Source of the DNA: Pseudomonadota bacterium
GTDB lineage: Bacteria > Desulfobacterota > Desulfovibrionia > Desulfovibrionales > Desulfovibrionaceae
Direction of reading: 5' to 3'
Assembly (NCBI GenBank): GCA_018817515.1
Contig: JAHIUD010000017.1
Location: forward strand, 1-60,996
Length of the DNA: 60,996 bases
The position numbers and the translations under genes are program-made. Of this stretch, positions 21,645 to 37,900 are shown in pieces. Each line of letters opens with the position of its first letter. Within the stretch, counting starts at the first letter, position 1. The notes below the pieces were generated by a model. It had not been told where the DNA came from, searched no databases, and was given only the letters and a program-made list of their open reading frames with translations.

Positions 21645-21689
21645 GGCGTTGTGTCCTCACTCGTCAGTGTTTGACGCTTGGCAGAAACG

Positions 21690-21714: not shown

Positions 21715-21726
21715 GATCTCTCTGGG

Positions 21727-21802
21727 TGGTGGGCGATCCGGGATTTGAACTCGGGACTTCCACCGTGTGAAGGTGGCACTCTAACCGCTGAGTTAATCGC
21801 CC
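21727..21802 (-). tRNA. tRNA-Val (anticodon CAC)
   Basis: A 76-nt cloverleaf includes an encoded CCA. The acceptor GGGCGAT pairs with ATCGCCC, the D stem is ACTC/GAGT, and the anticodon arm is CCACC-TTCACAC-GGTGG, giving anticodon CAC for GUG codons. The T arm has the TTCAAAT loop, with one A-C mismatch in its stem. Confidence 0.95.
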
Positions 21803-22298: not shown

Positions 22299-22853
22299 AT
22301 GCGGCGGGTAGCGGGTTTTGTCGTCTTGGCTTTGTTTCTGGTGTCCGGCTGCGGCTCGGTGCAGCGGACCACCGCCGTGGATCAGGTCCAGTTGAACTCA
22401 CGGGCGCGCAAGGTTGTGGTGTTGCCCCTGGTGAACCTGACCTCCATGCCCAACGCCGGGCGCATCGTGGGCGAACTTTTGAGCACTGAGATCATCGCCC
22501 AGACGGATTTCCGCATGCTGGAGCGCTCGGAGATGATGGAGCACCTGGCCAGCGGAAAAATCGAGGTGGAAGAGGTGCTTGAGAAGTCCGCCGCAGCAAA
22601 GGTTGGGCTCTCGCTTGGTGTGGATACCGTGATTTACGGCGCGGTGACCGAGTACCGTTACAAGAAGGGCGTGGACGAAGACCCGGTGGTGGGCATCAGC
22701 GTCAAGATGTTGGACATCCAGGAGACGCGCATCCTCTGGGCCGAGAGCGTCACGGCCACGGGCTCCATGTATTCGGGCCGCACCTCCTTGAGTTCGCTGG
22801 CGCACATGCTCTGCGCCGACATGGTCAGAACCTTGGCCTCGAAGATGAAGTAG
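22299..22853 (+). CDS. pelC: PelC-like outer-membrane lipoprotein
   Basis: The protein has 184 aa. The start at 22299 follows TTTGGAGGGTAGCAGC. A lipoprotein signal ends in LVSGC, giving a lipidated Cys at residue 18. The mature part has the CsgG/FlgO-like pattern (VVVLPLVNLTSMPNAGRIVGELLSTEII, FRMLERSEMMEHL, GVDTVIYGAVTEYRYK) known for PelC, which forms a periplasmic ring under the PelB export pore. The length is close to the 172 aa of the Pseudomonas protein. Its position 20 bp before the pelA hydrolase gene supports the call; general CsgG-like lipoproteins are the alternative. Confidence 0.75.
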   Translation: MRRVAGFVVLALFLVSGCGSVQRTTAVDQVQLNSRARKVVVLPLVNLTSMPNAGRIVGELLSTEIIAQTDFRMLERSEMMEHLASGKIEVEEVLEKSAAAKVGLSLGVDTVIYGAVTEYRYKKGVDEDPVVGISVKMLDIQETRILWAESVTATGSMYSGRTSLSSLAHMLCADMVRTLASKMK

Positions 22854-22873
22854 CCGTCAAGGATGGGGCACCT

Positions 22874-23728
22874 ATGATGACCAGAAACTTTTGGCTATGT
22901 GCGCTTGTGCTGCTGGCCAGCGCGCTGCCGGTGGCCACGGCCCAGGCGGCCCAGTACAAGAACTGGCTGTGCTACTACGGCACGGACTTCGGCCCCAAGC
23001 AGTACGGCCGCTTCGATCTCGTGGTGCTCGACGGCCTGCGCCACCCGCCCCTGGTGCGCAATCAGGCGGGCAAGCCCCTGCTCCTGGGCTACGTCACCGC
23101 CGGTGAATCCGACCCCGGGAGTCCCACATGGATTCTGGCGCAGAACCAGAGTTTTGTCGCCGGAAAAAACGAGAACTGGGGCTCGCTCATCATCGACATG
23201 CGCAGCGCCAAGTGGCAGGGCATCCTACTCGACATCGTCATCCCCAAGGTGCTGGCCCAGGGCTTTGACGGCATCTTCCTCGACACCATCGACTCGGCCC
23301 TGGCCCTGGCCCAGGGCGAGGACGCGGCAAAGTACAGCGGCATGCGCGAGAGCATTCTGGCCTTCCTTGGCCGCGTGCGCCAGCGCTTCCCGAACATCCA
23401 CATCTGCATGAACAGGGGCCTGGAACTGTTGCCGGAGGCCGCGCCGCTCATCGATTCGCTGCTCATCGAGGATCTTTCCTTTGAGTATGACTTCGAGACC
23501 AAGGAGTACCGCGCGGTGCGGCCGCAGGTGCGCCGGGCCCTGGTGGCCATGGCGCGCAAGGGCCTGGCAGCCAATCCGAAGCTGACCGTGCTGACGCTGG
23601 ACTACGCCACGCCGGATCAGACGGAGCGCATCAAAGAGGCCATCAGCTATTCCCGAAGCAAAGGATTTGTGCCGTATGTCAGCACCATCGCGCTGGACCA
23701 GGTGTTCTACCACACCCTGGCCCGCTAG
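22874..23728 (+). CDS. pelA: PelA glycoside hydrolase part (GH166-like) as a separate protein
   Basis: The protein has 284 aa with a cleavable signal peptide (LCALVLLASALPVATAQA). The TIM-barrel sequence GYVTAGESD, the segment DGIFLDTIDS (residues 132-141) and LIEDLSFEYD fit the alpha-1,4-galactosaminidase-like domain that forms the N-terminal third of PelA. In Pseudomonas this domain trims Pel in the periplasm. Here it ends in its own stop codon, and the rest of PelA is encoded by the next gene, which overlaps it by 53 bp. Acidic catalytic residues appear to be present. Confidence 0.85.
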   Translation: MMTRNFWLCALVLLASALPVATAQAAQYKNWLCYYGTDFGPKQYGRFDLVVLDGLRHPPLVRNQAGKPLLLGYVTAGESDPGSPTWILAQNQSFVAGKNENWGSLIIDMRSAKWQGILLDIVIPKVLAQGFDGIFLDTIDSALALAQGEDAAKYSGMRESILAFLGRVRQRFPNIHICMNRGLELLPEAAPLIDSLLIEDLSFEYDFETKEYRAVRPQVRRALVAMARKGLAANPKLTVLTLDYATPDQTERIKEAISYSRSKGFVPYVSTIALDQVFYHTLAR

Positions 23729-25877
23729 CATTCGCAGCCTGCCTGCTCTCTGTCTGCTGGCCCTGTGCCTGCTGCCGAATTGTCTGCTGCCCCAGTTGGC
23801 CCTTGGGGCGAAGAAGGCTGCGGTCCAGAAGCCTGCGGCTGCCGCGCCGGAGCTCATTGCGCGCCGGGTTCTGGTGCTCTACGACGGCTCCGCCGGGGCA
23901 GGCCCGGACGACAACATCGTGCACCAGGGCTTTCAGATGGTCTTCGACTACTACGGGCTGATTCCCTATTTCCGGGACATCAACTCCCAGGCCCTGCCCG
24001 ACGATGCGGCCATGGCCGACACCTGCGCCGTGGTGACGAGCCTGAGCCAGAACTCAGTGCGCAAGCCCCGGCCCTACCTGCCTTGGCTGCTCAAACAGAT
24101 GAAGTCGGGCAAGCGTGTCATGATCCTGGGGCATCTTGGCGTATCCTTGGCCCAGGGGGCGGATTTCGCCGACGTGGACCAACTTTCCAGAGCGGTGTTC
24201 GCGCAGCTCGGCGCGGCTCCGGCCAGCCTGCTGGGCCTGGACCAGCGCGCCTTCCGCTATGCCCAAAAGGCTCCGGGCCTCATCGACTTCGAGCGTCCGC
24301 TGCCGCCCCAGCCCGTGGTCACCAGCTTTTTTGAGCAGAAGAGCCCGTCGCTCAAAGTCTACGTGAGCCTGAAGCATCCGGCCCGGCCCGGCAAGGAGTT
24401 CCCGGCAGTGTTCGTCGGGGCCTCCGGCGGGTTCGCTGCGGAGCACCACATCTACTGGGAGGAGTCCACCGGCGACAACCGCCGCAAGTGGTACCTCGAC
24501 CCCTTCGCCTTTGTGGCCGACAGCCTGGGGCTCAAGGGCCGCATGGCCCCGGACGTGACCACCTTAAACGGCTTGCGCCTGGCCTTCTCCCACGTCGATG
24601 CCGACGGCTTCGCCGGCTATTCGAACGTGGGCCAAAAGCAGATGTGCGCAGAGGTCTTGCGCGACCGCATCTACAAGCGCTTCAACTTTCCGGTGACCTT
24701 GTCGCTCATCGTGGCCGACGTGGACCCGAAGATCGCCACGGACCTAAAGCGCGCCAGGCAGGCCCAGGACGTGGCGCGCGAGCTCTTCCGCATGTCCAAC
24801 ATCGAGCCGGGCAGCCACACCTATTCGCACCCGTTCTACTGGAATGAGAAGGGCAACACCAAGACGCGGTATGAGAACCGCTTCCCCTACAAGATACCCG
24901 GCTATACCTTTAATCTGGCCCAGGAGATCGACGGCTCCATCCGCTTCATCAGCAGCTTGAGCCCCCCGGACAAACCGTGCCGCCTGCTCCAGTGGTCGGG
25001 CGACTGCATGCCCACCGCCCAGCAGATCGCCCGCGTCGATGACCAGGGATTGTTCAACATCAACGGTGGCGATACCATGCTGGACCAGAAGAGCAACTCC
25101 CTGTCCAGCGTCTCGCCCATGTTCCGCGTGGTGGGCAGCAGGGTGCAGATGTTCACGGCCATGGCCAATGAGAACGTCATGACCAACCTCTGGACCGGCC
25201 CTTTCTACGGCTACCGCGCAGTCATCGAGACCATCAAGCGGACCGGCTCGCCGCGCAGGCTCAAGCCCATCGACATTTACTACCACTTCTTCAGCGGCGA
25301 GCACGAGGCCTCGGTCCGGGCCCTGGAGGATGTTTACGGCTTCGTGGGCGGCCTGCCTGTTGCCCCGGTGTTCACCACCCAGTACCTGGAGGCCGCGCGC
25401 GACTACCTCAAGGTGCACATTCTGCGCGCCGGGCCGGAGGTCTATCACATCGAGAACTACGGCCGCAGCCTGACCCTGCGCCTGGACGCCGACGCGGCCG
25501 CGCCCAACTTGGCGCGCAGCGAGAATATCCTCGGCTATTCCCGGCAGAAGGAGGGGCTGTACGTCTCCCTTGCGCCCGGAGCCGCGCGGGCCGTGCTCTC
25601 CTTTGAGCCCGCTACGGGCAAGTCTGAGCCCCTGCCCTATCTGGCGGAGGCCACGGGCTACGTCTCGAATTTCAAGCCGGGCAAGGACTCGCTGGCGCTG
25701 ACCTACAAGGGCATCGGAAGCGCAGGCCGCCTGCGCCTGGCCGGGTTCACCCCCGGTGCGCAGCTCAAGGCCAGCGGCACGGCCCTGGCCAAGCCCGTCA
25801 GCGTGCGCGCCGACGCTTCGGGCTTTGCCGACGTCTCCGGCCTGCGCAACGGACAGGTGGAGGTCGCCGCTCCATGA
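23676..25877 (+). CDS. pelA: PelA deacetylase part as a separate protein
   Basis: The protein has 733 aa from the ATG at 23676, inside the end of the hydrolase gene, with AAGGA upstream. A hydrophobic signal-like segment (LPALCLLALCLLPNCLLPQ) lies at residues about 22-40. The next 200 residues match the reductase-like middle domain of PelA. The carbohydrate esterase family 4-like motifs follow: HVDADGF (residues 306-312) and SHTYSH (380-385), giving the Asp and two His metal ligands. The C-terminal 150 residues are beta-rich. PelA partially deacetylates the polymer in the periplasm. It overlaps the next gene by 4 bp. Confidence 0.85.
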   Translation: MSAPSRWTRCSTTPWPASIRSLPALCLLALCLLPNCLLPQLALGAKKAAVQKPAAAAPELIARRVLVLYDGSAGAGPDDNIVHQGFQMVFDYYGLIPYFRDINSQALPDDAAMADTCAVVTSLSQNSVRKPRPYLPWLLKQMKSGKRVMILGHLGVSLAQGADFADVDQLSRAVFAQLGAAPASLLGLDQRAFRYAQKAPGLIDFERPLPPQPVVTSFFEQKSPSLKVYVSLKHPARPGKEFPAVFVGASGGFAAEHHIYWEESTGDNRRKWYLDPFAFVADSLGLKGRMAPDVTTLNGLRLAFSHVDADGFAGYSNVGQKQMCAEVLRDRIYKRFNFPVTLSLIVADVDPKIATDLKRARQAQDVARELFRMSNIEPGSHTYSHPFYWNEKGNTKTRYENRFPYKIPGYTFNLAQEIDGSIRFISSLSPPDKPCRLLQWSGDCMPTAQQIARVDDQGLFNINGGDTMLDQKSNSLSSVSPMFRVVGSRVQMFTAMANENVMTNLWTGPFYGYRAVIETIKRTGSPRRLKPIDIYYHFFSGEHEASVRALEDVYGFVGGLPVAPVFTTQYLEAARDYLKVHILRAGPEVYHIENYGRSLTLRLDADAAAPNLARSENILGYSRQKEGLYVSLAPGAARAVLSFEPATGKSEPLPYLAEATGYVSNFKPGKDSLALTYKGIGSAGRLRLAGFTPGAQLKASGTALAKPVSVRADASGFADVSGLRNGQVEVAAP

Positions 25878-28438
25878 AGATCAGCGCCTGGCAGACCATC
25901 CTCTTCATCGCCCTTATCGTTGGGGCGAGCTGGCTGGTATTCCCAGGCCCGCGCACGCTCATCTCCATCTACATCAAGGACAACAAGGCCGCCCTGGCCA
26001 GGGTCATGCTGGACAGGCTCCTGGCCCTGCATCCCGATGACCCGGACCTGAACATGGAGGCTTCCGAACTCGCGCAGTCAAACGGCGAGGTCGACAAGGC
26101 CATGACACTCCTGAAGCGGGTGATGGAGCTTCGGCCCGGCAGGCGGGAGCTGATCCTGCGCCTGGCCGAGTGGCAGGAATGGGCGGGACGTCCCAAGGAG
26201 GCTGAGGAGAGTCTGGAAGCCGCCCTCACGGTCATGCCGCAGCTCAACGAACGTCATCCCGCGACCTACGCCAACCGTCGCGACGTGCTGTTGCGCCTGC
26301 TTTCCCACTATACCTACCAGGGCGACCGCGAAGGCATGTACCGCACCGTGCAACGCCTGATCCCGTTGGACAAGGTCGTGGTGGCCCAGGAGATCGCCGC
26401 CAGAAAGCCCTTGCAGCAGATCAGCCACGTGCTGGAGACGCTCTCCGCCTCAGTGGCCAAGAGCGATGATGCCGTGGCCAGCGCCCTGCTTGTGGACGCC
26501 TACAATCTCCGGCGAGGTTTCCTTGAGGACATTCAGGAAGGCGCCGCCACAGCAGAGATTGAAAAGGTATTCGTCAACGATTCCTTGGAACTGTTCGTTC
26601 GCGGCGGCCTGACGCAAGAGTCCATTCAGCTGGCGTCGCTGCTCGACAGGCAGAGCGGGACCGCCAACTCGCGCCTGGCCGTGGCCGTGGCCTTGGGCGG
26701 TTATGGCGCGGAAAAGGACGCGGCGCGGTTTATGGCCGAACTCGTCAAGGAGCGTCCCAACGACACCGCGCTGCTGCGCGGGCTGGCCGAGTTGGCCATG
26801 AACTCCAACCTGCCGCAGGACGCTGTGAAGCACTTGCAGCGCGTCATCGAGCTCAGCCCGACAGACACCGACGCCAAGCGTATGCTGGGCGAGGCCTTGC
26901 TGGCTGCGGGTCGCGCACCGGAGGCTTATGCCGTCCTGGCGGCCCTGCCGGTGGCCAGCGTGGGCGAGGCCAACCTGCTCCTTGACGCCGCTGGCGGCTC
27001 CTTGAGCGCCGAGGCCGTGGCGGGCGCCGCAGAAGCGGTGAAGGACATTGCCAAGAGCGATTCCGTGGTCGGCATCAAGCTGGCCGATGCCTGGCTCGAC
27101 GTGAACCGTCCGCGTGAGGCCTGGATGCTCCTGCGCACGCTGGCTGCGGAGTCCGGCGGCGACCCCGCGCTCATCCGCAGGGCCGTGCAGGCCGCGTCCC
27201 AGACCAACGATCCGGCCACCCTGCGCGAGGTGCTGGCGCTCATCGAGCGGCCGGACTTCGCCGACACGGCCCTGCTGCTCGAAGTGGCGGACCTGCTGGT
27301 GGGCAGCAACGAACTCAAGGGCGCGGCCAAGGTCTATGAGCGCTACCTGGCGCGCAACCCAGGCGACCGCACCACCGCGCTCAAGCTGGCCCAGGTGCAG
27401 TCCTGGCGCGAGGCCCCGGACCTGGCCTTTGTCGTGGTGGAGCGGCTGCGCGGGGCCTACCCCGGCGACAAGGCGCTCCAGAAGCTGGCCGCTGGCTACG
27501 CCGAGGAGGCTGGCAAGGATGCCGACGCCTTCCGCATTTACGCCGAGATCTATCGCCAGAACCCCACGGACAAGAAGGCGCGGGAAAACTTCATGCGCTT
27601 GGCCGAGTGGACCGGGCGCACGGCCGAGAGCGCCAAGCTCCTGGCCGAGGACTCGGACCGCGAGCCTTTGAACCAAGCCAAGGCCAAGCAGACCGCCGAG
27701 GCCTTCCTGGCGGCGGACGAGCCGAAGAAGGCGCTGCCGTATCTTGAACGCGCCCTGGCGCTCAAGGCCGACGACATCGCCCTGCGCCGCCTGCTGGCCG
27801 ATACCTATGGCGGTCTGGGCTTTGTGGACCGCCAGGCCGTGACCCTGGAGCCGCTGGCCGCGCGCGGCCTGCTCACCGAGGACGAGGCCGTGCTGGTGGC
27901 CCAGCACCACCTGGACCGCAAGCAGCCGCAGAAGGCCCTGAAGGTGCTGGCGCGCTTTGAGCAGATGAAGCCCATGCCCTGGGACGCGGGCGCGCTGCTG
28001 GTCCAGACCTACACCGTGCTGAACCGGCAGGAGCTGACCCAGCAGACCATGCGCCGCCTGAAGGATGACTACGAGGCCGACCCCGAGCGGCTGTCGGCCA
28101 TTGGCGACATGGCGGTGCTGAACAAGCGCCTGGATTTCGCCCTGGACTGCTACGCGGCCTCGCTGCGGGTGGACCCGCGCAACCGCGCCGCCCTCAAGGG
28201 CCAGGCGCAGATCCATGCCTGGAACAACGACGCCGAGCGCGCCATCAAGGGCTTTGAGCACTACCGCGTCCAGTACCCCTCGGACATCGAGGCGCGCTAC
28301 CAGCTGGGCGAGCTGTATTTTACCACCGATCGCGAGGGCGAAGCCTCCGGCGAGTACAAGAAGACCTTGAGCCTCATCAGACAGGCCCGCAAGGCGAGAG
28401 CGGCGGCCAAGACCGCCCCGAGGAGCGTGATCCAATGA
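25874..28438 (+). CDS. pelB: PelB TPR scaffold part, inner-membrane anchored
   Basis: The protein has 854 aa. A single N-terminal membrane segment (ILFIALIVGASWLVF, residues about 9-25) is not followed by a cleavage site. The rest is nearly all helical TPR-type repeats, seen for example at ALARVMLDRLLALHPDDPDLN, DAVKHLQRVIELSPTDTDAKR and KALPYLERALALKADDIALRR. In Pseudomonas PelB the TPR scaffold and the export barrel are one 1193-aa chain; here this gene codes only for the scaffold. It overlaps its neighbours by 4 bp on both sides. It should span the periplasm and hold PelA. Confidence 0.8.
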   Translation: MKISAWQTILFIALIVGASWLVFPGPRTLISIYIKDNKAALARVMLDRLLALHPDDPDLNMEASELAQSNGEVDKAMTLLKRVMELRPGRRELILRLAEWQEWAGRPKEAEESLEAALTVMPQLNERHPATYANRRDVLLRLLSHYTYQGDREGMYRTVQRLIPLDKVVVAQEIAARKPLQQISHVLETLSASVAKSDDAVASALLVDAYNLRRGFLEDIQEGAATAEIEKVFVNDSLELFVRGGLTQESIQLASLLDRQSGTANSRLAVAVALGGYGAEKDAARFMAELVKERPNDTALLRGLAELAMNSNLPQDAVKHLQRVIELSPTDTDAKRMLGEALLAAGRAPEAYAVLAALPVASVGEANLLLDAAGGSLSAEAVAGAAEAVKDIAKSDSVVGIKLADAWLDVNRPREAWMLLRTLAAESGGDPALIRRAVQAASQTNDPATLREVLALIERPDFADTALLLEVADLLVGSNELKGAAKVYERYLARNPGDRTTALKLAQVQSWREAPDLAFVVVERLRGAYPGDKALQKLAAGYAEEAGKDADAFRIYAEIYRQNPTDKKARENFMRLAEWTGRTAESAKLLAEDSDREPLNQAKAKQTAEAFLAADEPKKALPYLERALALKADDIALRRLLADTYGGLGFVDRQAVTLEPLAARGLLTEDEAVLVAQHHLDRKQPQKALKVLARFEQMKPMPWDAGALLVQTYTVLNRQELTQQTMRRLKDDYEADPERLSAIGDMAVLNKRLDFALDCYAASLRVDPRNRAALKGQAQIHAWNNDAERAIKGFEHYRVQYPSDIEARYQLGELYFTTDREGEASGEYKKTLSLIRQARKARAAAKTAPRSVIQ

Positions 28439-29931
28439 CCCGTGTGCAAATCCGCAACATCGCCGTGCTGCTCCTGCTGGCCTGGCAGGCCCCGGCCCTG
28501 GCCCAAGCGCCGACCAAAGCTCCTGCTCAGGCCGTGGCGCAGGCAGGCCAGAAGGCCCCGGCCCAGCGCGCCGTGCGCGACCAGTTGCCCGATCAGGAAG
28601 AGCCCCTGACCGAGCGCCAGATGGCGCTCATGGAGGCGCGCATTCTAAGCCGTCAGGGCGAGATTCCCAAGAGCCTGGCCCTGTACGAGCAACTGCGCGC
28701 CGACTATCCCGACGACGTGGAGGTCTACGAGGACTACCTGGAGACCCTGGTGGCCACCGCCCAGTACGAGCGCGTCCTGTTCGAGCTGGTGGGCTTCCGC
28801 AAGAAGTTCGGCAGCACCTCGCGCTCGGAGCGCATCGAGGCCGGGCTCTACGCCGAGCTGGAAAAGCCCCAGTACGGCCTGGAGATTCTGGAGCGGGCCA
28901 TGCGCGGCAATCCGAGCGACATCGGCCTGTGGAGCGATCTGGCCGTCCAGCGCCAGGCCAGCCGGGACGTCAACGGGGCCATCCAGGCCTTCTCGCACGT
29001 GCTGGAGGTGGACCCTGAGAACCAGGCCGCAAAAGACGCCCTGCACTTGCTGCTGCTGGAGAAGCGCCCCAGGTTCGAGGCGGGCCTCAGCGTCTACGAT
29101 CAGGGCAAGAAGACCGTGACCACCACCTTGTCCACGGGCCTTTCCGCGCAGACGGGCGACAACACCCGGCTGTTCCTCGACTTTGCCCAGGTGCACCTCT
29201 CCCGGCCCGATGACGAAAACGGCGTCCGTGCGGATGTGCAGACCTTTGGCGCGCGCATCGAGCACGAGCTCACCCGCAACTGGACCCTGGACCTGGGCCT
29301 GCAGAGCTACCTCGGCCTGGGCGACGGGCTCTCGCCCATGGTCGGCGCACGCTACAACTTCGAGCGCAATGGCCGGGCCAGGGCCAGCTACGCCTACCAC
29401 ATGCCCTGGTACGACCAGATGGACGCGGTGGAGCTAAGCGGCTCCAAGGACCGCCTGCACCTGGAGTACGAGCTGCCCTTCCGCGATGTCTGGGTGGCCT
29501 ACGCCGGGTACACCAGGGAGAACTACCGCCTGTCCGGCCTGGACGACGCGGGCTTCCGCTGGGAGGGCACCGGCAGCCTGACCAGGCGGCTGTGGACCCG
29601 ACCCGACGTCTATTTGACCTACACCTTCCAGCGGGCCGAGACCGAGCCCAACGTGGAGATCCCCTTTGAGCTCATCCGCCGCGAGCAGAGCCACGCCGGG
29701 ACCCTGTCCATAACCTATCCGTTCCTCACCTGGCTTGAGGGCACGGTCAGCGGCGGCATCAAGAACGATACCGAGCGCAAGATCGAGGCGCTCATGCTCT
29801 CGCCCAAGCTGACCTTCCGGCCCTTGGAGCGCATGCGCCTCGAGGTCGGCTGGGACTATGCCAGCGAGGGCAGCACCGTGGCCGGCGGCGAGTCCAGCAC
29901 CTACACCGCCAAGTTCTTCTGGGTCTGGTAG
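28435..29931 (+). CDS. pelB: PelB outer-membrane export pore part, with short TPR segment
   Basis: The protein has 498 aa and its own signal peptide (AVLLLLAWQAPALAQA). Residues about 55-215 hold a few TPR units (EIPKSLALYEQLRADYPDDVEVYEDYL). From about 215 the pattern alternates hydrophobic and polar residues in beta strands with many aromatic residues, ending in YTAKFFWVW, the terminal aromatic expected of an outer-membrane barrel. This matches the C-terminal part of PelB, the pore through which Pel leaves the cell. It starts inside the last codon of the scaffold gene. Confidence 0.85.
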   Translation: MTRVQIRNIAVLLLLAWQAPALAQAPTKAPAQAVAQAGQKAPAQRAVRDQLPDQEEPLTERQMALMEARILSRQGEIPKSLALYEQLRADYPDDVEVYEDYLETLVATAQYERVLFELVGFRKKFGSTSRSERIEAGLYAELEKPQYGLEILERAMRGNPSDIGLWSDLAVQRQASRDVNGAIQAFSHVLEVDPENQAAKDALHLLLLEKRPRFEAGLSVYDQGKKTVTTTLSTGLSAQTGDNTRLFLDFAQVHLSRPDDENGVRADVQTFGARIEHELTRNWTLDLGLQSYLGLGDGLSPMVGARYNFERNGRARASYAYHMPWYDQMDAVELSGSKDRLHLEYELPFRDVWVAYAGYTRENYRLSGLDDAGFRWEGTGSLTRRLWTRPDVYLTYTFQRAETEPNVEIPFELIRREQSHAGTLSITYPFLTWLEGTVSGGIKNDTERKIEALMLSPKLTFRPLERMRLEVGWDYASEGSTVAGGESSTYTAKFFWVW

Positions 29932-29935
29932 GCGC

Positions 29936-31354
29936 ATGGAAATCAACCGTTTGGCCGCCCGCCCCGGCAAAACCTCGTCCATGAGCTTCCTGGTGGAGGC
30001 CCTGCTCGGCTTCTCGCTGATCACGGCCGTGAACGTCATGTGGTTCCGCGCCAACCTGGGCTTTGTCGGGGTCAGCCCGCATCCGTACTGGGTCGTGGTG
30101 CTGCTTTTGGCCTCGCGCTACGGCTTTCTGGCCGGACTGTTCAGCGGCGTCGTCTCCGCCGCGCTTGCCGTGGGCCTGTCCATCATCGGGCGGCAGGGCA
30201 CCACCATCTACGAACTGTGGAAGCTGCTTCTCGGCGAGCCCATCTTGTTCCTCGCCGTGGGGTGCATCCTGGGCGAGATCAGCCAGAGCCTCAAAAGCCG
30301 CTACGAGGCCCTGCTGGGCGAGCACGAGGAGCTCCAGGAGGTCTTCGAGAAGCTGCGCGAACGCTACGACGCCCTGGTCAAGGCCAAGCAGGAGGTGGAC
30401 ACGCGCATCCTCTCCCAGGAGCAGACCCTGACCACCATGCACGAGACGGCCCAGGCCCTGCGCTCGCTCAGCGAAGGCGAGCTGTATCCTGCGGCGCTGG
30501 AGATGGTGGCCAAGTTCCTGAACGCGGAAGCCAGCTCCATCTATCTTTTCGAGGACGGACGCCTGAAGCTCAAGGCGAGCCACGGCGAGCTGGAGAACAG
30601 AAAGCGGCCCGGCGACCTGCTGCCGGACGAGGGGCTCATGGGCCGGGCCTTCGCCACCGGGCACGTGGCCTCGGCCAACGTGCTGCTTGAGATGTACGAG
30701 AAGGGAGTGCTGCCGGACAGCGACACCCTCATCGCCGCGCCGCTCCTGACCAGCGGCAACAAGGTGCTGGGCGTGCTGAACATCGAGAAGCTGCCCTTCC
30801 TCAAGTTCAATTCCCAAACCATCCGCATGGCCGAGGTCTTCTCCGGCTGGTGCGCCGATGCCCTGGAGAACGCGCTGCTGTATTCGGACACCAAGTCCAA
30901 GACCATCACCGACGACATCACCGGCGCCTACACGATCTCGTACATGAACGCCCGCCTCTTGGAGGAATGCGCACGGGCCAGGCGTTACAAGACCGATCTG
31001 GCCATGATCGTTCTGGACATACTGGGATACGTTGAGTATTCGGAATCTGAGCAGCGTGAAATCCTCACCGCCTTGAGCAAGGCCTTGAAGACGCTGCTCC
31101 GGAACATCGACCTGCTCTTTTCCGGCGACGAACCCGGGCGCTACATCATCCTGATGCCGAACACGCCCCTGATCGGCGCCAAGGTCGTGGGCCGCAAGAT
31201 CGTGGAGCTGGTGGGAGACATGGGCAGCGTTGTGGAGTCGGCCCAGGGCCCCTTGCCCGTGGGCATGGGCGTCAGCGCCTTTGACGAGGCCAGCAACACC
31301 CCTGAGCTCATCTTCCAGACGGCCATCGCGGACCTGCTGGCGAAGAAGGACTGA
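29936..31354 (+). CDS. pelD: PelD, inner-membrane c-di-GMP receptor of Pel synthesis
   Basis: The protein has 472 aa, close to the 455 of Pseudomonas PelD. The start at 29936 is 4 bp after pelB stops. Membrane helices occupy residues about 18-110, followed by a coiled coil (EEVFEKLRERYDALVKAKQE), a GAF domain (about 170-315) and a degenerate GGDEF domain. The inhibitory-site motif is kept as R389-N-I-D392, exactly where RxxD stands five residues before GGDEF. The active-site motif is lost (DEPGR), so it should bind c-di-GMP without making it. PelD activates the PelF synthase complex. Confidence 0.9.
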   Translation: MEINRLAARPGKTSSMSFLVEALLGFSLITAVNVMWFRANLGFVGVSPHPYWVVVLLLASRYGFLAGLFSGVVSAALAVGLSIIGRQGTTIYELWKLLLGEPILFLAVGCILGEISQSLKSRYEALLGEHEELQEVFEKLRERYDALVKAKQEVDTRILSQEQTLTTMHETAQALRSLSEGELYPAALEMVAKFLNAEASSIYLFEDGRLKLKASHGELENRKRPGDLLPDEGLMGRAFATGHVASANVLLEMYEKGVLPDSDTLIAAPLLTSGNKVLGVLNIEKLPFLKFNSQTIRMAEVFSGWCADALENALLYSDTKSKTITDDITGAYTISYMNARLLEECARARRYKTDLAMIVLDILGYVEYSESEQREILTALSKALKTLLRNIDLLFSGDEPGRYIILMPNTPLIGAKVVGRKIVELVGDMGSVVESAQGPLPVGMGVSAFDEASNTPELIFQTAIADLLAKKD

Positions 31355-31401
31355 GGACGGAAGCGCATCATCGGACAGCACTAAGCACAGCGGCGGCAGG
31401 C

Positions 31402-32655
31402 ATGCAGACGAACATCCCAGACGATCCGGCATTCCATCAGGGCTTCATCGCGCGCCAAGCGGTGTTCGACGCCAAGCGCAGCATCTGGGGCTATGAAATC
31501 TTCTACCGCCAGAAGCTGGAGCCCGGGCAGTCCGATACGGACCACAAGGCCATGCTGGAAGTTGCCACCCGGGCCTTTTTAAGCCCGCAGTGGCAGCAGA
31601 GCCCCAATTCCTATCTCCTGGTGGCCCTGGACCCCAAGGCCGATCCCGCCGACATCGCCGGAGTGCTGCCCAAGGGCCGGTCCGTGCTCAAGATCAGCGA
31701 AGACACCCTGGCCGCGCCGGGCATGCAGGATACCCTGGTCCAACTGCGCCAGGAGAACTACCTCATCGCCCTGGGGGATTTTACCGGCAAGCTCTCGGGC
31801 ACCCCGCTGATGAACATGGTGGATATCCTCGCCGTGAACATGCTGAGCGACCAGCGCGATGCGCTCATCATGGAGGCCCGGCTGCAGAGCGTGCAGCGGC
31901 CCATGCAGATCATGGCCAAGAGGGTGGAGGACGTGCAGACCTTCGCCGTGGCCAAGAACGCGGGCTGCACCCTGTTCCAGGGCTTCTTCTTCCAGAAGCC
32001 GGAGCGCATCTCGAGCAAGGTCGTCTCCTCAAGCCTCGCCGGAAGCCTGGGCATCCTCAAGATGATCGAGCAGGAGGACCCGGACATCAGCGCCCTGGCC
32101 CAGGCCATCCAGAAGGATGTATCCTTGAGCTACCGCCTGCTCAAGTTCCTGAACTCGCCCTATTTCGGCTTCGCCCGCGAGGTCTCCTCCATCAAGGTGG
32201 CGCTCATCCTGGCTGGCTGGCAGCAGATGCGCACCTGGCTGCGCCTGGTGCTCATCACCGAGATGAAGCCCAAGCACAAGCCCAGCGAACTGATCTTCCT
32301 CTCGGCCCAGCGCGGGCGCTTTCTGGAGCTTGCGGCCCTGCGCACGGGCGGGCGGCGGATGAACTCCGAGCGCATGCTGCTGCTCGGCCTGTTCTCGCTT
32401 CTGGAGAGCATCTTCGACATGCAGATGGATGACATCGTGGGCTCCCTGCCGCTGGACCAGGAGCTCAAGGACACGCTGTGCCTGCGCCCAACGCCGCTGG
32501 CTCCCTGGCTTGGGCTGGTGCACAGCTTCGAGCGCGCGGACTGGGACGATCTGGAGACGCGCTTTGTGGCGCTGGGGGTCGACCCGGTGGTGGTGGCGGC
32601 CTGCTACACCGAATCCATGCAGTGGGCGCACGCCATCTTCAACTTCCTGAACTAG
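31402..32655 (+). CDS. Degenerate EAL plus HDOD domain signalling protein (YuxH type)
   Basis: The protein has 417 aa. Residues about 10-210 follow the EAL fold: FIARQAVFDAKRSIWGYEIFYR at the start and CTLFQGFFFQKPERI at the end. The EAL motif and the metal-binding acidic residues are missing, so phosphodiesterase activity is not expected. The HDOD domain starts near 215 (LAQAIQKDVSLSYRLLKFLNSPYFGF) and extends to the end, where ALGVDPVVVAACYTESMQWA closes the protein. It lies 47 bp after pelD on the same strand. A role in regulating Pel or other c-di-GMP responses is inferred from the neighbourhood. Confidence 0.85.
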   Translation: MQTNIPDDPAFHQGFIARQAVFDAKRSIWGYEIFYRQKLEPGQSDTDHKAMLEVATRAFLSPQWQQSPNSYLLVALDPKADPADIAGVLPKGRSVLKISEDTLAAPGMQDTLVQLRQENYLIALGDFTGKLSGTPLMNMVDILAVNMLSDQRDALIMEARLQSVQRPMQIMAKRVEDVQTFAVAKNAGCTLFQGFFFQKPERISSKVVSSSLAGSLGILKMIEQEDPDISALAQAIQKDVSLSYRLLKFLNSPYFGFAREVSSIKVALILAGWQQMRTWLRLVLITEMKPKHKPSELIFLSAQRGRFLELAALRTGGRRMNSERMLLLGLFSLLESIFDMQMDDIVGSLPLDQELKDTLCLRPTPLAPWLGLVHSFERADWDDLETRFVALGVDPVVVAACYTESMQWAHAIFNFLN

Positions 32656-32672
32656 CCGCCCAAAGCGGCGCC

Positions 32673-33749
32673 TCAAGCCCCCTTGGCGAGGCCCTGCCTG
32701 TACCAGGCGATGGTCCTGGCCAGACCCACGCTCAGCACGGTCTCGGCCTTCCAGTCGGACTTGGCGGTCATCTCGGTCACATCGGCCACGGAGTGCACGA
32801 TGTCGCCGTCGCGCGAGGGGTAGAACAGGCAGCAGGACTGCTGGCCATCCAGCTGGGTCTCCTCCCTGGGGCCGATGTCCAGGATGATGGCATTGGGCTT
32901 GTCCGTCAGGATGAGCACTATGCGCGCTAAAGCCACGATCTTCACGGACTTGCCCGTGCCGATGTTGTACACCCCCGTGGGCAGCAGCTGTTCCCCGACC
33001 AACCCGGCGGCCGTCAGGTAGGCCAGCACCACGTCGTGCACGTAGACGAAGTCGCGCGTCTGCTCGCCATGCCCGAAGATGGTCAGGGGCTGGTCGGCCA
33101 GCGCCTTGGACATGAACTTCGAGATGACGCCGCTGTATGGGCTTGAGGGGTCCTGCCGGGGGCCGAAGATGTTGAAGAAGCGCAGGGACACGCCAAGGGG
33201 GCTTTGGCTCACCGCGCGCGACGACAGGTACTTGGCGTTGCCGTAGGGGCTCAGCTGCACGGTCTCGTCGTTGGCGTAGCTCTCCTTGATGGGCATGCGC
33301 TCCTCTGCGCCGTATTCCGCAGCGGACCCGGCAAAGACCACGCGCGAGGCGCCAAACTTCTCCGCCGCCGCGAGCAGGCGCTCAGTGGACAGGAAATTGA
33401 TGTCATAGGTCTCGTCGGCATGGGTCATGGAGTAGGGCACGCTGACGATGGCCGCCAGATGGAACACCGCGCGGATGGGCCCATGCTGCGCAAAGAGCTC
33501 CGTAAACAGCGTCGGCTCGACTATTGAGCGCTCAAGGAAAAGGAAGCGCTCATGGCTGATGAAGGCCTGCATGTTCTCCGGCTTGCCGGAGAAAAAGTTG
33601 TCCACGCCGATGACGCGATGGCCCATGTCCAGCAGGCTCTGGGTCAGGTGGCTGCCCACGAACCCGGCGCAGCCCGTCACCAGACAGGTCTTGCCCGCTA
33701 TGGGGTCCGTGCTGTCCTTGATTTCAATGGTCTCGTTCATTTTCATCAT
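32673..33749 (-). CDS. pelX: NAD-dependent sugar-nucleotide epimerase, PelX-like
   Basis: The protein has 358 aa from 33749; 33746 and 33740 are also possible. Extended-SDR features: VTGCAGFVGSHLTQSLLDMG at the nucleotide site, VFHLAAIVSVPYSMTHADETYDIN, FAGSAAEYGAEE, and the catalytic YxxxK in SPYGNAKYLSS. The family interconverts UDP-GlcNAc/UDP-GalNAc or UDP-Glc/UDP-Gal. PelX is a C4-epimerase encoded in many pel loci and supplies UDP-GalNAc for Pel. It lies 13 bp after pelG on the same strand. The substrate is inferred from that position. Confidence 0.8.
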   Translation of the reverse strand: MMKMNETIEIKDSTDPIAGKTCLVTGCAGFVGSHLTQSLLDMGHRVIGVDNFFSGKPENMQAFISHERFLFLERSIVEPTLFTELFAQHGPIRAVFHLAAIVSVPYSMTHADETYDINFLSTERLLAAAEKFGASRVVFAGSAAEYGAEERMPIKESYANDETVQLSPYGNAKYLSSRAVSQSPLGVSLRFFNIFGPRQDPSSPYSGVISKFMSKALADQPLTIFGHGEQTRDFVYVHDVVLAYLTAAGLVGEQLLPTGVYNIGTGKSVKIVALARIVLILTDKPNAIILDIGPREETQLDGQQSCCLFYPSRDGDIVHSVADVTEMTAKSDWKAETVLSVGLARTIAWYRQGLAKGA

Positions 33750-33762
33750 GGGGGGTGCCTGT

Positions 33763-35130
33763 CTAGATCGGTTGGCGTGCAAAGGTGATGAATTCAAGGT
33801 CCTGCACGGTGTTCACCAGGAGATAGAAGCCGAGCATGAGCGAGAAGAAGCAGGCATAGGTGTAGCCGAAGCCGTAGAAGGGGAAGCCCAGCCAGAGGGT
33901 CAGCTGGGTCAGCCCGGCATTGAGGATGAGATAGCAGAAGGCCACGGACAGGACGCGCTGGCGCAGATCGAAATAGAACAGGATGGTCACCGTCAGCGAC
34001 ATGAGCGCCTGCAGGAACGAGCCGATGCAGCTGATGCGCAGCAGCGGCACCTGTGCGGGCGAGAGGCCGCCCACGGCGACGATCTCCGGGGCGAAGACCA
34101 CGCACAGGGTCGTGATGCCGCCCTGGATGATGAACATCTCGCGGATGCTGGCCTTGAGCATGTTCGCCATGCCCTCTTTCTCCTCCAGCAAGACCGCCAG
34201 CGGGCGCTTCTCGGTGATGCACTGGTAGTAGCGCCGGTAATGCTCGTAGAAGCCGGTCTCGATCTTCACCATGAACACGGCCAGGGCCGGGACGATGCTC
34301 AAATAGGACAGGAACACCGGGCCTTCGTAGAAGTCGTGCACGGTGAGCGGCACCACGATGACGCGCGCGGTGGGGTCCATCCAGAACACGAACTTGTCCG
34401 CCCAGATGGCCAGGTTGTAGACGAAGCCGATGAGGGCCAGGTCCCAGTACTTCTTGAAATAGGTGGCCATGGTGAACTTGAGCCGTGCGTTCTGGTCGAA
34501 CTCCGAGAGGATGATGGCCAGAAACCAGAATACGCTGACCACCAGCCCCAGGGTGTAGCCCATGATGCGCCCGTGCAGGCCCAGCAGGGGCTCCAGCGCC
34601 CAGACCCCGGCCACGGAGAGGATGGCCCCCACGGCGAAACCGATGACGATGTTGTTATAGTCCTTCACCGCCGAGAGCATGATCATGGTCAGCCAGAGCA
34701 GGCAGACCACGTCGAAGAGCACGATGGACAACAGCTTGTACGTCCAGGGCAGCGGGCCGCGATAGAACACCGCCAGGCCCACCAACAGCCCGCCGAGCAG
34801 CACAAGGATGGCGCAGGCCACGAAGGCCGAGAGCAGCGCGTGGTCGTCCTTCAGGTACAGCTGGTCGGCCAGGAAGCGCGTGAGGATGAGCTGGAAGATG
34901 CCTACGAAGATGAGCGAGTAGGCGAAGACGTAGACCACGGTGGTGCGGAAGATCTCGCCGTCCTGTTCGGCGCCGCCGGCGGCGGAGAGCGCCGTGAGCA
35001 CGCCCAGGCAGGTGATGGACAGGAGCCACGGGCCCGAGGACAAGAGCGCGGCGTAGAGAAACGCGCGGATGTCGCCCATGAAGTTGTCCTTGTCCAGGAG
35101 CTTGCGCAGCTCAAAGCCGATGCCCGCCAT
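33763..35130 (-). CDS. pelG: PelG, inner-membrane Pel exporter
   Basis: The protein has 455 aa, one residue shorter than Pseudomonas PelG. It starts MAGIGFELRKLLDKDNFMGDI, which is typical of the family, and carries about 12 hydrophobic helices of the MATE/Wzx type. It moves the nascent polymer across the inner membrane in complex with PelD, PelE and PelF. The gene begins 3 bp after the pelF stop codon. Confidence 0.93.
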   Translation of the reverse strand: MAGIGFELRKLLDKDNFMGDIRAFLYAALLSSGPWLLSITCLGVLTALSAAGGAEQDGEIFRTTVVYVFAYSLIFVGIFQLILTRFLADQLYLKDDHALLSAFVACAILVLLGGLLVGLAVFYRGPLPWTYKLLSIVLFDVVCLLWLTMIMLSAVKDYNNIVIGFAVGAILSVAGVWALEPLLGLHGRIMGYTLGLVVSVFWFLAIILSEFDQNARLKFTMATYFKKYWDLALIGFVYNLAIWADKFVFWMDPTARVIVVPLTVHDFYEGPVFLSYLSIVPALAVFMVKIETGFYEHYRRYYQCITEKRPLAVLLEEKEGMANMLKASIREMFIIQGGITTLCVVFAPEIVAVGGLSPAQVPLLRISCIGSFLQALMSLTVTILFYFDLRQRVLSVAFCYLILNAGLTQLTLWLGFPFYGFGYTYACFFSLMLGFYLLVNTVQDLEFITFARQPI

Positions 35131-35133
35131 GCC

Positions 35134-36663
35134 TTAAGCCATCCTTCCGGGCATGGCCATGCACTCGCTGTACAGGGCCCGGTATTTGCTGATGAGGTCT
35201 TTCTCGGCGTAGAAGCGCGTCACGCGCTCGCGGCCGCTTAGGGACATGGCGCGACGCAGCTTGGGGTTCTGCAGAATGGTCAGGATGCCCTGGGCCGTGT
35301 CCATGGGCTCGGCCGGGCGGGTGATGTAGCCCGACGGCCCCACGGCCTCGTCCTCCGGGGTGCGCCCGTGCAAAAGCTCGCTGCAGGCGCCCACGTCCGA
35401 GGCCACCACCGGCACGCCCGCGCAGTTGGCCTCCAGGATAACCAGGGGCTGGGCCTCGCTCACGCTGGTCAGCACCAGGAGGTCGAGCTTGGCGTAGTAA
35501 TCGTTGGTGTTGACCTTGCCGGTGAAGGTGATGGTCGAGTCCAGTCCGAGCAGATGCACCAGCTCGTGGCACTCGCGCGCGTAATCCTCGGCCTCGTCCT
35601 CCGGCCCGATGATGAAGGCCTCGATGCCCGGCACCTCCTGGGTGACGATCTTGATGGCCCGGATGAAGGTCTTGACGTCCTTGATGGGCACCACGCGGCC
35701 CACGAAGCCGATGAGGAAGTGGCCCTCGGCCCCGCGCTCGTCCTCGTAGGTGTCGGCCCGGGGGCGCAGATTCTCGTAGCGCGAGAGGGTGATGCCGTTG
35801 GGGATGACCTCGGTGCGCTCAGGGGCGGAGCCGCCCAGGATCTGCATCTTGCGGTTGCCCTCGAACAGCGTGATGACCCGATGCGCATGGGCGTAGGTCA
35901 GCCTGCTCAGGGTCTCGAAGATGTGTATCCAGAGGTTCTGGAAGGTGCCCAGGTCGCGCTCGATGCGCAACCGGTCGTCCTGTTCGGTGTGGATCCACTT
36001 GGACTGCGCCACCTCGATCTTGCGTTCCTTGGTGTAGATGCCGTGCTCGGTCAGGATCATGGGCCGGTCCATGCGCAGGCTGGCCAGCACGGCCATGAGC
36101 CCGGCGAAGCCGGTGCAGATGGTGTGGTAGACCTTGGCCTTGGGCAGGGGCGCGTTGATGACGTTGCAGATGGGCAGGTGCGTGAAGCGGTAGGTCCAGA
36201 AATAGTCCAGGAACGAGGCCTCGGGATGCCTCTTGTTGTAAAGCTCGATCATGATGTCCCAAGGCTTGCGGCCAAAGACCATGTCCTTGACGTCGATCTG
36301 CCCGCCGGATTCGTGCAGGGCGTTCACCAGCTTCAGCAGGCCGCCTGCGCCGCCGGTCATGTCGGGGTCCAGGTGCCACAGGCGGATGGTCTCCATGAGC
36401 GCCGCCCGGTCTTTTTTGCTCATCCTGGCGGTCTTTTGCGTGTCATGGTCGTGCAGGTAGACCAGGTGCGGGTCCACGAAGTTTTCCGGCACCTGGTAGC
36501 GGTATTCGGCCTTCTCCTTGGCCGTGGCCCGGATGCAGACCGAGGTGAAGGACAGCTCCGGCATGGACTTGATCAGGTGGTGGACCCAGGTGGAGACGCC
36601 GCCGGGAACATACGGATAGGTGCCTTCCAGGATCAGGCAGACGTCATGGATCTTCTCAGCCAT
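35134..36663 (-). CDS. pelF: PelF, cytoplasmic Pel glycosyltransferase
   Basis: The protein has 509 aa, against 507 in Pseudomonas. The start at 36663 follows the pelE end with an 8-bp overlap. The GT-B fold shows DVCLILEGTYPYVPGGVSTWVHHLI at the N terminus and a donor-site EX7E in SVSEAQPLVILEANCAGVPV. LIGFVGRVVPIKDVKTFIRAI is the hinge segment typical of family 4. It polymerises the GalNAc-rich Pel chain from a UDP-sugar. Confidence 0.95.
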   Translation of the reverse strand: MAEKIHDVCLILEGTYPYVPGGVSTWVHHLIKSMPELSFTSVCIRATAKEKAEYRYQVPENFVDPHLVYLHDHDTQKTARMSKKDRAALMETIRLWHLDPDMTGGAGGLLKLVNALHESGGQIDVKDMVFGRKPWDIMIELYNKRHPEASFLDYFWTYRFTHLPICNVINAPLPKAKVYHTICTGFAGLMAVLASLRMDRPMILTEHGIYTKERKIEVAQSKWIHTEQDDRLRIERDLGTFQNLWIHIFETLSRLTYAHAHRVITLFEGNRKMQILGGSAPERTEVIPNGITLSRYENLRPRADTYEDERGAEGHFLIGFVGRVVPIKDVKTFIRAIKIVTQEVPGIEAFIIGPEDEAEDYARECHELVHLLGLDSTITFTGKVNTNDYYAKLDLLVLTSVSEAQPLVILEANCAGVPVVASDVGACSELLHGRTPEDEAVGPSGYITRPAEPMDTAQGILTILQNPKLRRAMSLSGRERVTRFYAEKDLISKYRALYSECMAMPGRMA

Positions 36664-37723
36664 GGTGCACCTTGCCCACGCCGGCCCAGAACTCGAACAG
36701 GGCCAGCGGGTCCGGCTTCTGCGGCCGGGGCGCGTCGGACAGGGCCATCCTGCGGGCCTGCTCCGCAAGCTTAGCGAAATCACGCAACTGATAGGCTATC
36801 TGGGCCAGGCCGAGCTGAGCCTCGGAGGCCGTTTCCTCAAAACGGGTGCATTTCTCGAACATCTGCCAAGCCTCGCGCAACTGGTTCAGGTCGAGCAGGG
36901 CCTGGGCCAGGAGCAGCATGGTCTGGTCGTGGTCGGGCTCCAGCTCAAGGGAGCGCAGGAGCGCGTCGCGGCAGCTCACCAGGTGCTGCCCGCGGGCGAT
37001 CTCGTCGGCCAGGCCGGAGTCGGCGTAGGCGCGGTATTGCATGCCCAGCAGGCGGTAGGCGGCGGCGCTGGGCGTCTTCTCGAGGGTCGCGTTGAGCGCC
37101 TGGATGCGGCTGGTGAAGGCGTCTTCAAGCTCGGTCAGGGCAGAGTGGGCGTAGAAGCGCACCTCCGGGAACTGGTCCGAGAGGCTCTGGCGCAACAAGC
37201 CCACGGCGTTTGGCGTGCCGATGCGCTGGAGCAGCTTCACCGCGCCGCGCTTGAGGTCCGGGTCGTCGCCCTGGAGCACGTCGATGACCGGCTCGATGGC
37301 GATCTCGTCTGCCAGCACCTGGCCCACACGCTTGCGCATGATCCAGCGGGAGTCTTCGCCCAGGGCGGACTCCAGGCTTTTCTTGAATTCCTTGATTTTG
37401 TTCTTTTGGCGCATGAGCAACTGCGCGCACAACAGCGCCAGCAGGCAGCCGATGATGCCCGCGCCCGGCACGCATAGGGTCAGAGTGGCGGTGAGGCCGT
37501 AGATGGAGCTGCTGTTCTCGCGCCACTTACTGGAAAACAGGCAGGGCAGGACAAAGGCCAGGGACGAAGCCACGAGCAGGCACAGGGCGAGGACGGCGAA
37601 GAGCGGCTCCTTGCCGGTGTGGAAGCGCCAAGCCGCCAGCAGGCTGGTCGCGTGCAGCGGCAGCGCCACAACCCAGACGAACAGAGCGCCTGTGCGATGA
37701 GTGGATTCGGAGGTTTCGTCCAC
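36656..37723 (-). CDS. pelE: PelE, inner-membrane TPR/HEAT-like subunit of the Pel synthase
   Basis: The protein has 355 aa and starts at GTG; Pseudomonas PelE has 329. Membrane helices lie at residues about 12-33, 41-62 and 76-100. The cytoplasmic part has a charged helix, then HEAT-like repeats (DDPDLKRGAVKLLQRIGTPNAVGLLRQSL) and TPR-like repeats (PDHDQTMLLLAQALLDLNQLREAWQMFEKC). PelE bridges PelD, PelF and PelG. It is the first gene of the minus arm. Confidence 0.85.
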   Translation of the reverse strand: MDETSESTHRTGALFVWVVALPLHATSLLAAWRFHTGKEPLFAVLALCLLVASSLAFVLPCLFSSKWRENSSSIYGLTATLTLCVPGAGIIGCLLALLCAQLLMRQKNKIKEFKKSLESALGEDSRWIMRKRVGQVLADEIAIEPVIDVLQGDDPDLKRGAVKLLQRIGTPNAVGLLRQSLSDQFPEVRFYAHSALTELEDAFTSRIQALNATLEKTPSAAAYRLLGMQYRAYADSGLADEIARGQHLVSCRDALLRSLELEPDHDQTMLLLAQALLDLNQLREAWQMFEKCTRFEETASEAQLGLAQIAYQLRDFAKLAEQARRMALSDAPRPQKPDPLALFEFWAGVGKVHHG

Positions 37724-37774
37724 GTTCCGGGTGTCCCTTGCTACAGGATTGTCGTATGCGCTATAGGCTGCGCA

Positions 37775-37803
37775 AATCTATGCGAATTGTGTGCCGGGGT
37801 CAA
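37775..37803 (-). promoter_or_regulatory. Sigma-70-type promoter of the pelEFG-epimerase arm
   Basis: On the minus strand TTGACC (plus 37798-37803) and TAGATT (plus 37775-37780) are 17 bp apart, about 50 bp upstream of the pelE GTG. No sigma-54-like box was found here, unlike in front of pelC. Confidence 0.45.
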
Positions 37804-37900
37804 TGTGGCGTATGCTGTGAGGCGGGCAAGCGGCCCAGGCCAAGGATTTATAGCGTGCAGCAGGGGCCGTGGGGGCTTTGTCCGGCTGCCCGGCGGGCTG

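Follow-up and report, generated by a model that had tools for sequence, protein, structure and literature searches.

Does the machine for the sticky biofilm polysaccharide Pel of Gram-negative bacteria need PelA and PelB as single chains, and which arrangement came first? The question is raised by a stretch of 60,996 nucleotides from a sulfate-reducing member of the Desulfovibrionaceae (contig JAHIUD010000017.1 of assembly GCA_018817515.1, which has 114 contigs and 3.6 Mb in total), which was analyzed as a whole and is called the window in the following. At positions 22299-37723, it carries a complete pel locus. The window has the same parts as the pelABCDEFG system of the Pseudomonas aeruginosa type (9CGY, 9H80), with the same catalytic residues, a 16-strand barrel with a neck of tetratricopeptide repeats (TPR), a PelC lipoprotein and a PelD with an RxxD motif. 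However, the P. aeruginosa type has single-chain PelA and PelB and a one-strand operon, whereas in the window pelA and pelB are two genes each and the locus is divided into two arms on opposite strands. In our reading, which we hold with good confidence, the locus encodes a Pel synthesis and export machine controlled by cyclic di-GMP (c-di-GMP) and belongs to an old lineage with unfused PelA: the separation of PelA would be ancestral, PelB would have changed its state repeatedly, and the convergent arms would have been born within the genus.

Two Genes for PelA and Two for PelB

The plus arm reads pelC, the hydrolase and deacetylase genes of PelA, the TPR and barrel genes of PelB, pelD, and finally a gene for a protein with EAL and HDOD domains; pelE, pelF, pelG and an epimerase gene form the minus arm, which meets the plus arm tail-to-tail. 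A first-pass annotation of the window had described a complete Pel locus with the synthase genes in this place, and its gene positions and overlaps (53 nt in the PelA pair, 4 nt in the PelB pair) hold. The parts are identified by profile matches for the glycosyltransferase PelF (35134-36663, minus strand; NF038011 equivalog, 510.8 bits, cut-off 100) and the exporter PelG (33763-35130, minus strand; PF16933, 452.8 bits, cut-off 29), together with structure matches for the PelA halves and the PelB barrel. The ratio of nonsynonymous to synonymous substitution rates (dN/dS) is 0.08-0.44 in all 11 genes (Nei-Gojobori method, comparison with as many as four congeners, in part over less than the whole gene; the start of the epimerase gene was taken at 33743 in this run, compared with 33740 as set from relatives). 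Among the matches listed, the highest deacetylase identity to a named relative is 88%, to Humidesulfovibrio sp. Ess09-03.

The hydrolase half of PelA (22874-23728, plus strand) is GH166/GH114-like: it matches the structure of PelA 5tcb in the Protein Data Bank (PDB; E 6.6e-24) and the GH114 family (53.6 bits, cut-off 27), and its D137 and E199 (numbering in the window protein) align to the catalytic Asp and Glu of 5tcb. The deacetylase half (23676-25877, plus strand) consists of a mixed alpha/beta domain, a CE21 deacetylase domain and a beta-rich domain, and matches PelA 9cgy (E 1.4e-72). An AlphaFold model of this half (17 sequences, mean predicted local distance difference test score, pLDDT, 86.8) recovers 9cgy with E 2.7e-47 and a template-modelling (TM) score of 0.80 by query length, the next match being at E 8.2e-5. 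H306, D308, D310, H381, H385, E499 and H537 are kept as counterparts of the deacetylase residues named for P. aeruginosa PelA (PMC12022489). Each half of PelA, and likewise of PelB, begins with a hydrophobic N-terminus, as read from hydropathy and by eye, in keeping with the separate export signals that had been proposed for them.

The TPR half of PelB (25874-28438, plus strand) matches TPR families and has a single N-terminal hydrophobic stretch, which suggests a scaffold anchored in the inner membrane; its gene shares the four nucleotides ATGA with the barrel gene (28435-29931, plus strand). In the AlphaFold2 model of the barrel half (14 sequences, mean pLDDT 83.5), a signal-like helix (residues 3-17) and a disordered linker (18-56) precede TPR helices (60-210) and 16 strands (213-497). 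The top Foldseek match is PelBC, 9h80 (E 5.5e-18), followed by BcsC and by 4y25, a "polysaccharide outer membrane secretin" which we take to be PgaA. By VIA-align, 4y25 (Z 27.3 over 272 residues at 2.1 Å) and 9h80 (Z 26.9 over 357 residues at 4.1 Å) tie, and model residues 128-498 align to PelB 803-1191. Judging from the model, the pair comprises the two elements that define a PelB, a TPR scaffold and a 16-strand outer-membrane barrel. Hidden Markov models (HMMs) of the two halves tile the single-chain PelB of a related locus, L061, in order (TPR half 22-883, barrel half 884-1325), which makes the gene pair collinear with a single PelB. When PelB 762-1193 of P. aeruginosa is given a foreign signal sequence, the fragment assembles with PelC (PMC12141448); this engineered cut lies close to the natural one. 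The two PelB genes need not adjoin, as both PelA genes separate them in locus L027 (order C-barrel-hydrolase-deacetylase-TPR).

Distribution of the Separated Genes

The separation is not a peculiarity of this genome. Relatives were drawn from a scan of genome contigs, of which the best 80 matches (79 loci) out of at least 521 were used; family refers to the Desulfovibrionaceae, by the titles of the matching records. Thirty-two of 348 genomes of the class match the deacetylase, 30 of them in the family, and 28 of these 30 have it in one open frame of 696-760 amino acids, too short to hold the hydrolase as well; in the other two it is broken further, by contig ends (G225) or into two frames (G274). 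Outside the family, the class contributes one fused protein of 914 amino acids (G045) and one sequence full of stops (G051). In a sample of the phylum, 10 of 395 genomes match, the window included; two are unfused (G683, G529), six fused (924-957 amino acids) and one partial (G351). This survey was queried with the deacetylase and is by itself blind to the loss of that gene; PelG was found in 33 of the 348 class genomes, 32 of which have a deacetylase match. In the 33rd, G211, the rest of the locus reads as one open stretch of 4394 codons and is probably masked.

Two PelB genes are present in 17 of the 18 family loci read, although the barrel gene of L021 is short. The 18th, L011, holds an orphan deacetylase (11601-13784, 727 amino acids); it is the second deacetylase of genome G196, and no other pel gene was detected in its 20-kb stretch. 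Beyond the family, several phyla share one or both separations. A plasmid of Azospirillum thermophilum (NZ_CP029356) resembles the window in having two PelA genes, two TPR genes at the place of PelB and an adjacent epimerase gene, so the double separation is probably not confined to the Desulfovibrionaceae. It differs in lying on one strand, in the order epi-AH-ADA-B1-B2-C-D-E-F (AH and ADA, hydrolase and deacetylase genes of PelA; B1 and B2, the two PelB genes), and its barrel is putative.

The hydrolase is less constant. Among 17 family genomes searched for it, scores reached 170-584 bits in the 10 that have a hydrolase beside the deacetylase and 21-40 bits in five others, and G205 and G314 gave no match. 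HMMs detect weak GH-like frames near pelC in the loci of the latter two (L014, L022), and the weak hydrolase matches in L013 and L026 are GH114 proteins (Pfam) encoded beside pelC on the opposite strand. Since several relatives lack it beside the deacetylase or carry another GH114-like gene nearby, the hydrolase looks replaceable. This fits a model of the P. aeruginosa complex, in which the deacetylase and mixed domains of PelA contact PelB and the hydrolase domain does not (PMC12022489), as well as the report that the activity of the hydrolase reduces adherent biomass and gives rise to secreted Pel (PMC9894940).

Direction of Change

Three protein trees bear on whether PelA was split here or fused elsewhere. 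In a deacetylase tree of 90 rows, one branch with a support of 100 divides 53 fused proteins and L090 from 36 unfused ones. In a tree of 68 rows with Fusobacteria as outgroup, the 32 fused rows make up one side of a branch (support 100) and are nested among the unfused rows, and a PelF tree of 59 rows shows the same division, with 27 rows from fused-PelA loci (support 100). Because fused PelA forms one clade among unfused ones, a fusion in the Pseudomonas type is likelier than a splitting in the lineage of the window. The placement suggests that fused PelA is more likely the derived state and that one later fusion of hydrolase and deacetylase gave the Pseudomonas form; a hydrolase-deacetylase fusion in the same direction has been proposed for PgaB of the poly-N-acetylglucosamine (PNAG) system (PMC7112194).

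The 90-row tree omitted 20 of 108 loci: repeats (L036, L039, L041, L044, L045, L047, L093, L108), both copies of G213 (L008, L037), both halves of G225 (L038, L049), and partial, broken or paralogous loci (L011, L021, L024, L035, L043, L048, L077, L104), among which L021 and L048 carry a deacetylase that is itself divided over two frames. For the 68-row tree, 26 further loci were thinned and Azospirillum, Cereibacter and two Fusobacteria added; the PelF tree left out 22 of the thinned loci as well as loci with a short or weak PelF match, and Sulfitobacter was added. Labels of plasmid loci were set by hand. L090 is unfused by HMM, and its first 230 residues are, by eye, a degenerate hydrolase domain; it is labelled "F?" in the PelF tree and counted as fused in the PelA and PelB state counts on the rooted tree. 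The locus comes from a metagenome-assembled genome of the Myxococcota and has, besides this fused PelA (2373-5054) with a degenerate-looking hydrolase domain, a separate GH-like gene upstream.

The first-pass annotation had framed the locus as a split of Pseudomonas-like genes, i.e., single pelA and pelB genes would have been broken in this lineage, the halves still cooperating. The hydrolase and deacetylase genes are indeed adjacent, in domain order and with a 53-nt overlap in another frame, and the PelB halves are collinear with a single-chain PelB. However, none of the 30 matching family genomes (two with a further break) has a fused PelA, unfused PelA also occurs in several phyla, the fused PelAs form one nested clade, and deacetylases without a neighboring hydrolase still start with a hydrophobic stretch (by eye). 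For PelA, this framing is the less likely one, and we consider fission as an account of the locus unlikely.

Several points weigh against an ancestral separation of PelA and the machine proposed below. The PelA trees can also be read as one ancient fission. The unfused rows span about ten phyla by record titles (Desulfovibrionaceae and other Thermodesulfobacteriota, Planctomycetota, KSB1, Myxococcota, Bdellovibrionota, Auribacterota, Omnitrophota, Lindowbacteria, Rokubacteria, Verrucomicrobiota and alphaproteobacteria), and many of them are metagenome assemblies. The root of the deacetylase tree rests on two Fusobacteria whose branch is very long (8.2 changes per column), supports in both protein trees are values of the Shimodaira-Hasegawa-like approximate likelihood ratio test (SH-aLRT) from short searches, and neither the deacetylase nor the PelF tree holds a Gram-positive PelA. 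A hydrolase is frequently absent next to the deacetylase (not directly beside it in 12 unfused rows of the 90-row tree), and its role in the unfused lineage is not fixed; signal peptides were judged by hydropathy only, and the role given to the epimerase rests on its family and place. Plasmid searches for a Gram-positive rooting sequence returned only Proteobacteria with the deacetylase as query; with PelF they returned Fusobacteria and some actinobacterial and Deinococcus records, the actinobacterial L132 being without a deacetylase match.

PelB has a different history. On the 52 of 68 rows whose PelB state was assigned by hand (L054, L068 and L100, with the PelB region in two to three pieces, stayed unlabelled), the state changed at least three times. 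PelB has switched between one and two chains several times, and given these changes, fission may have occurred for PelB alone.

Convergent Arms and the Pel Island

In the pel loci from other genera of the family, all genes share one strand over the stretch read (14 of 14 loci). Their order is C-(AH)-ADA-B1-B2-D-E-F-G, and in most of them the epimerase gene follows pelG; in L021, no pelC was recognized and the epimerase gene is at the other end. Comparison of gene order across the Desulfovibrionaceae, as the first-pass annotation had suggested, thus finds convergent arms only in the genus of the window. The arms that it described are real but represent a rearrangement distinct from the separation of PelA and PelB. 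Outside the family, Desulfacinum hydrothermale (L028/L041) shares unfused PelA and PelB and two convergent arms with the window, which weighs against the arms being a simple quirk of the genus. Its arms are divided otherwise (C-AH-ADA-B1-B2 against G-F-E-D, with no EAL-HDOD gene there), its PelF sits on a long branch elsewhere in the PelF tree and its PelG is 23% identical, so they look like a separate event.

Within the genus, pelG occurs in 5 of 15 genomes, including that of the window, where a tRNA-Val(cac) gene (21727-21802, minus strand; ARAGORN) forms the left border of the pel island. In the pel-less genomes G212, G214, G217, G219 and G221, tRNA-Val and tRNA-SeC are separated by no more than about 0.1-0.7 kb, and in G222 tRNA-Val adjoins the gene found at 37901-38455 in the window. 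Such empty sites suggest that the island was gained between the two tRNA genes. In G216, only the EAL-HDOD gene and the 37901-38455 gene were recognized between the tRNAs. In a tree of a 1.7-kb flank, the five pel genomes and G216 form one group (98/98), with G216 nested among the other five (100/99), although the chosen outgroup did not form one side of a branch. Probably, the island was gained once in this clade of the genus, and G216 probably lost both arms and kept the EAL-HDOD gene. A single inversion of E-F-G-epimerase-EAL-HDOD was considered as the origin of the arms and rejected, as, relative to the flanks, the EAL-HDOD gene points the same way in G216 as in the window. No direct repeats were found at the island borders in window positions 21650-22320, and within 21700-38500 there are only short repeat families inside genes.

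The EAL-HDOD gene (31402-32655, plus strand; Pfam HDOD and EAL, the EAL domain degenerate-looking by eye) ends the plus arm, between pelD and the minus arm. A dedicated regulator of the Pel locus might explain this place, and all four pel-bearing congeners read (L007, L009, L049, L135) indeed have the gene in this position. However, it is kept in G216, which has no deacetylase or PelG match, and relatives of the protein are encoded in 149 of the 287 genomes of the family. It is rejected as a core Pel gene and is probably not a dedicated Pel part; that it should regulate Pel specifically is improbable. An HDOD-domain gene of a different type follows the epimerase gene in L013, L026 and partly L019 (Pfam), with a weak match at the same place in L152.

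To the right of the island, positions 38405-60996 are occupied by a contractile-tailed prophage with genes for an integrase, tail fibre, baseplate hub, tape measure, tail sheath and head protease. It starts at a 65-nt piece of tRNA-SeC (38405-38469), and a full-length match to this tRNA is found on another contig (G000:C77:40514-40613), the pattern to be expected if the prophage integrated at the gene for selenocysteine tRNA.

Remaining Genes and Proposed Working

PelC (22299-22853, plus strand) is a predicted outer-membrane lipoprotein of the CsgG/GNA1162-like type (Pfam GNA1162-like, 31.5 bits, cut-off 25.9; Cys after LVSG by eye), and an HMM of the window protein and its relatives also finds pelC where it normally lies in loci with fused PelA (142 bits in L074, for example). 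Likewise, a PelE HMM recovers pelE at the same place in other lineages; the window pelE (36656-37723, minus strand) encodes three membrane stretches (hydropathy) and has weak TPR similarity. PelD (29936-31354, plus strand) combines four membrane stretches with a GAF domain and a degenerate GGDEF domain (Pfam, hydropathy) and matches PDB PelD 4euv (E 1e-4), mainly in the GAF part. Its RNID is the predicted c-di-GMP site, RxxD being present in 69 of the 71 PelDs compared. The NAD-dependent sugar epimerase (32673-33740, minus strand; Epimerase Pfam, 172.8 bits; start set from relatives) is presumably PelX/GalE-like; its gene adjoins pelG in 10 of the 14 family loci read that far, and it probably supplies UDP-GalNAc.

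From these parts, the following working can be proposed. PelF would polymerize GalNAc from the UDP-GalNAc provided by the epimerase, and PelD, PelE and PelG would drive the chain across the inner membrane once c-di-GMP binds the RxxD motif of PelD. The chain may then run along the inner-membrane-anchored TPR scaffold of PelB, where a docked deacetylase half would strip acetyl groups, before the PelC ring and the second PelB protein, whose TPR neck sits on a 16-strand barrel, would take it over and let it leave the cell. The hydrolase half might act as a free periplasmic enzyme that trims the chain. Divergence in sequence (window PelF is 26-41% identical to plasmid-borne PelFs, the deacetylase 28-32% to fused PelAs in alignment), together with relatives that lack an adjacent hydrolase or have another GH114-like gene nearby, could instead point to a Pel-like machine for a different polymer, or to a hydrolase that is mainly an anti-biofilm enzyme. 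As the window retains the PelD site and the residues for catalysis by both the PelA hydrolase and the PelA deacetylase, we regard this as quite unlikely.

Gene Junctions

The 53-nt overlap of the two PelA genes runs from the deacetylase ATG at 23676 to the end of the hydrolase stop codon TAG, in different frames, and the ATG sits inside the codons of a conserved hydrolase motif, PYV(S) (tATGtc). A junction survey covered 41 rows, i.e., 34 distinct loci, 27 of which end the hydrolase in PYV. In all 27, the deacetylase overlaps the hydrolase in the +1 frame, a constancy that goes beyond chance; 17 have an in-frame ATG 53 nt before the hydrolase end (50 in Desulfacinum) and 10 only later starts, while the remaining seven loci have other junction types. 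The hydrolase stop is TAG in 24 of the 27 PYV loci; read in the overlapping frame, TAG yields Ser or Arg, whereas a TGA stop would put Asp or Glu into the signal region. The suggestion that the split lets the amounts of the halves vary sits poorly with overlaps of 53 and 4 nt, which argue rather for coupled translation. That the halves are real genes was correctly anticipated: although the +1 frame and the ATG distance shared by 17 of the 27 loci could be taken as signs of a frameshift, errors of sequencing or assembly and a programmed frameshift yielding full-length PelA are so improbable that they can be set aside, since the same arrangement, with open frames, recurs in independent genomes, dN/dS is well below 1 for each half, and a read-through product would carry a hydrophobic stretch mid-chain.

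Relation to Known Systems and Implications

In the alginate system, which makes a different polymer, the TPR scaffold AlgK and the outer-membrane barrel AlgE are likewise separate proteins, AlgK being a lipoprotein and the barrel having 18 strands. Closer to the window, Bacillus cereus has pelDEA(DA)FG and a separate pelA(H), i.e., hydrolase and deacetylase on separate polypeptides, and deletion of the hydrolase gene raised biofilm formation; unlike the window, the operon as named has no PelB or PelC, in a Gram-positive envelope (PMC7112168). PelB as two genes has been described as a "pelB fission" clade of aquatic thermophiles (PMC7112194). Each separation is thus already in print singly. The main text of PMC7112194 has no match to "Desulfo", and its relevant passages do not mention separate Gram-negative PelA halves. 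For syntrophic sulfate reducers, pel homologues are reported in passages that mention no separation (PMC10553843). Unfused PelA together with unfused PelB in Gram-negatives was not found in the literature searched, most subscription papers and preprints being outside its scope, and a search combining Desulfovibrio with all Pel terms found nothing. A survey of PelA homologues admitted only those with >85% coverage (PMC12022489), which leaves unfused PelAs out.

For the family, the locus is ordinary apart from its inverted arm, and it is mildly surprising in its bearing on the Pseudomonas form. More broadly, we lean slightly towards two deep Gram-negative Pel lineages, an ancestral one in about ten phyla with unfused PelA and often unfused PelB, and the Pseudomonas type as a derived fusion; where the unfused type has two PelB genes, scaffold and barrel would not be covalently joined and the hydrolase would be free and replaceable. 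Single-chain PelB has been proposed to bridge the inner and outer membranes (PMC12141448), and a machine in which both proteins naturally come as halves lets one ask whether export needs a covalent bridge or a tethered hydrolase. As the barrel half lies close to the engineered P. aeruginosa fragment, such loci may also offer ready-made constructs for structural work. If this broader reading is true, Pel export in the unfused type with two PelB proteins would work without a covalent bridge across the envelope and without tethering of the hydrolase.

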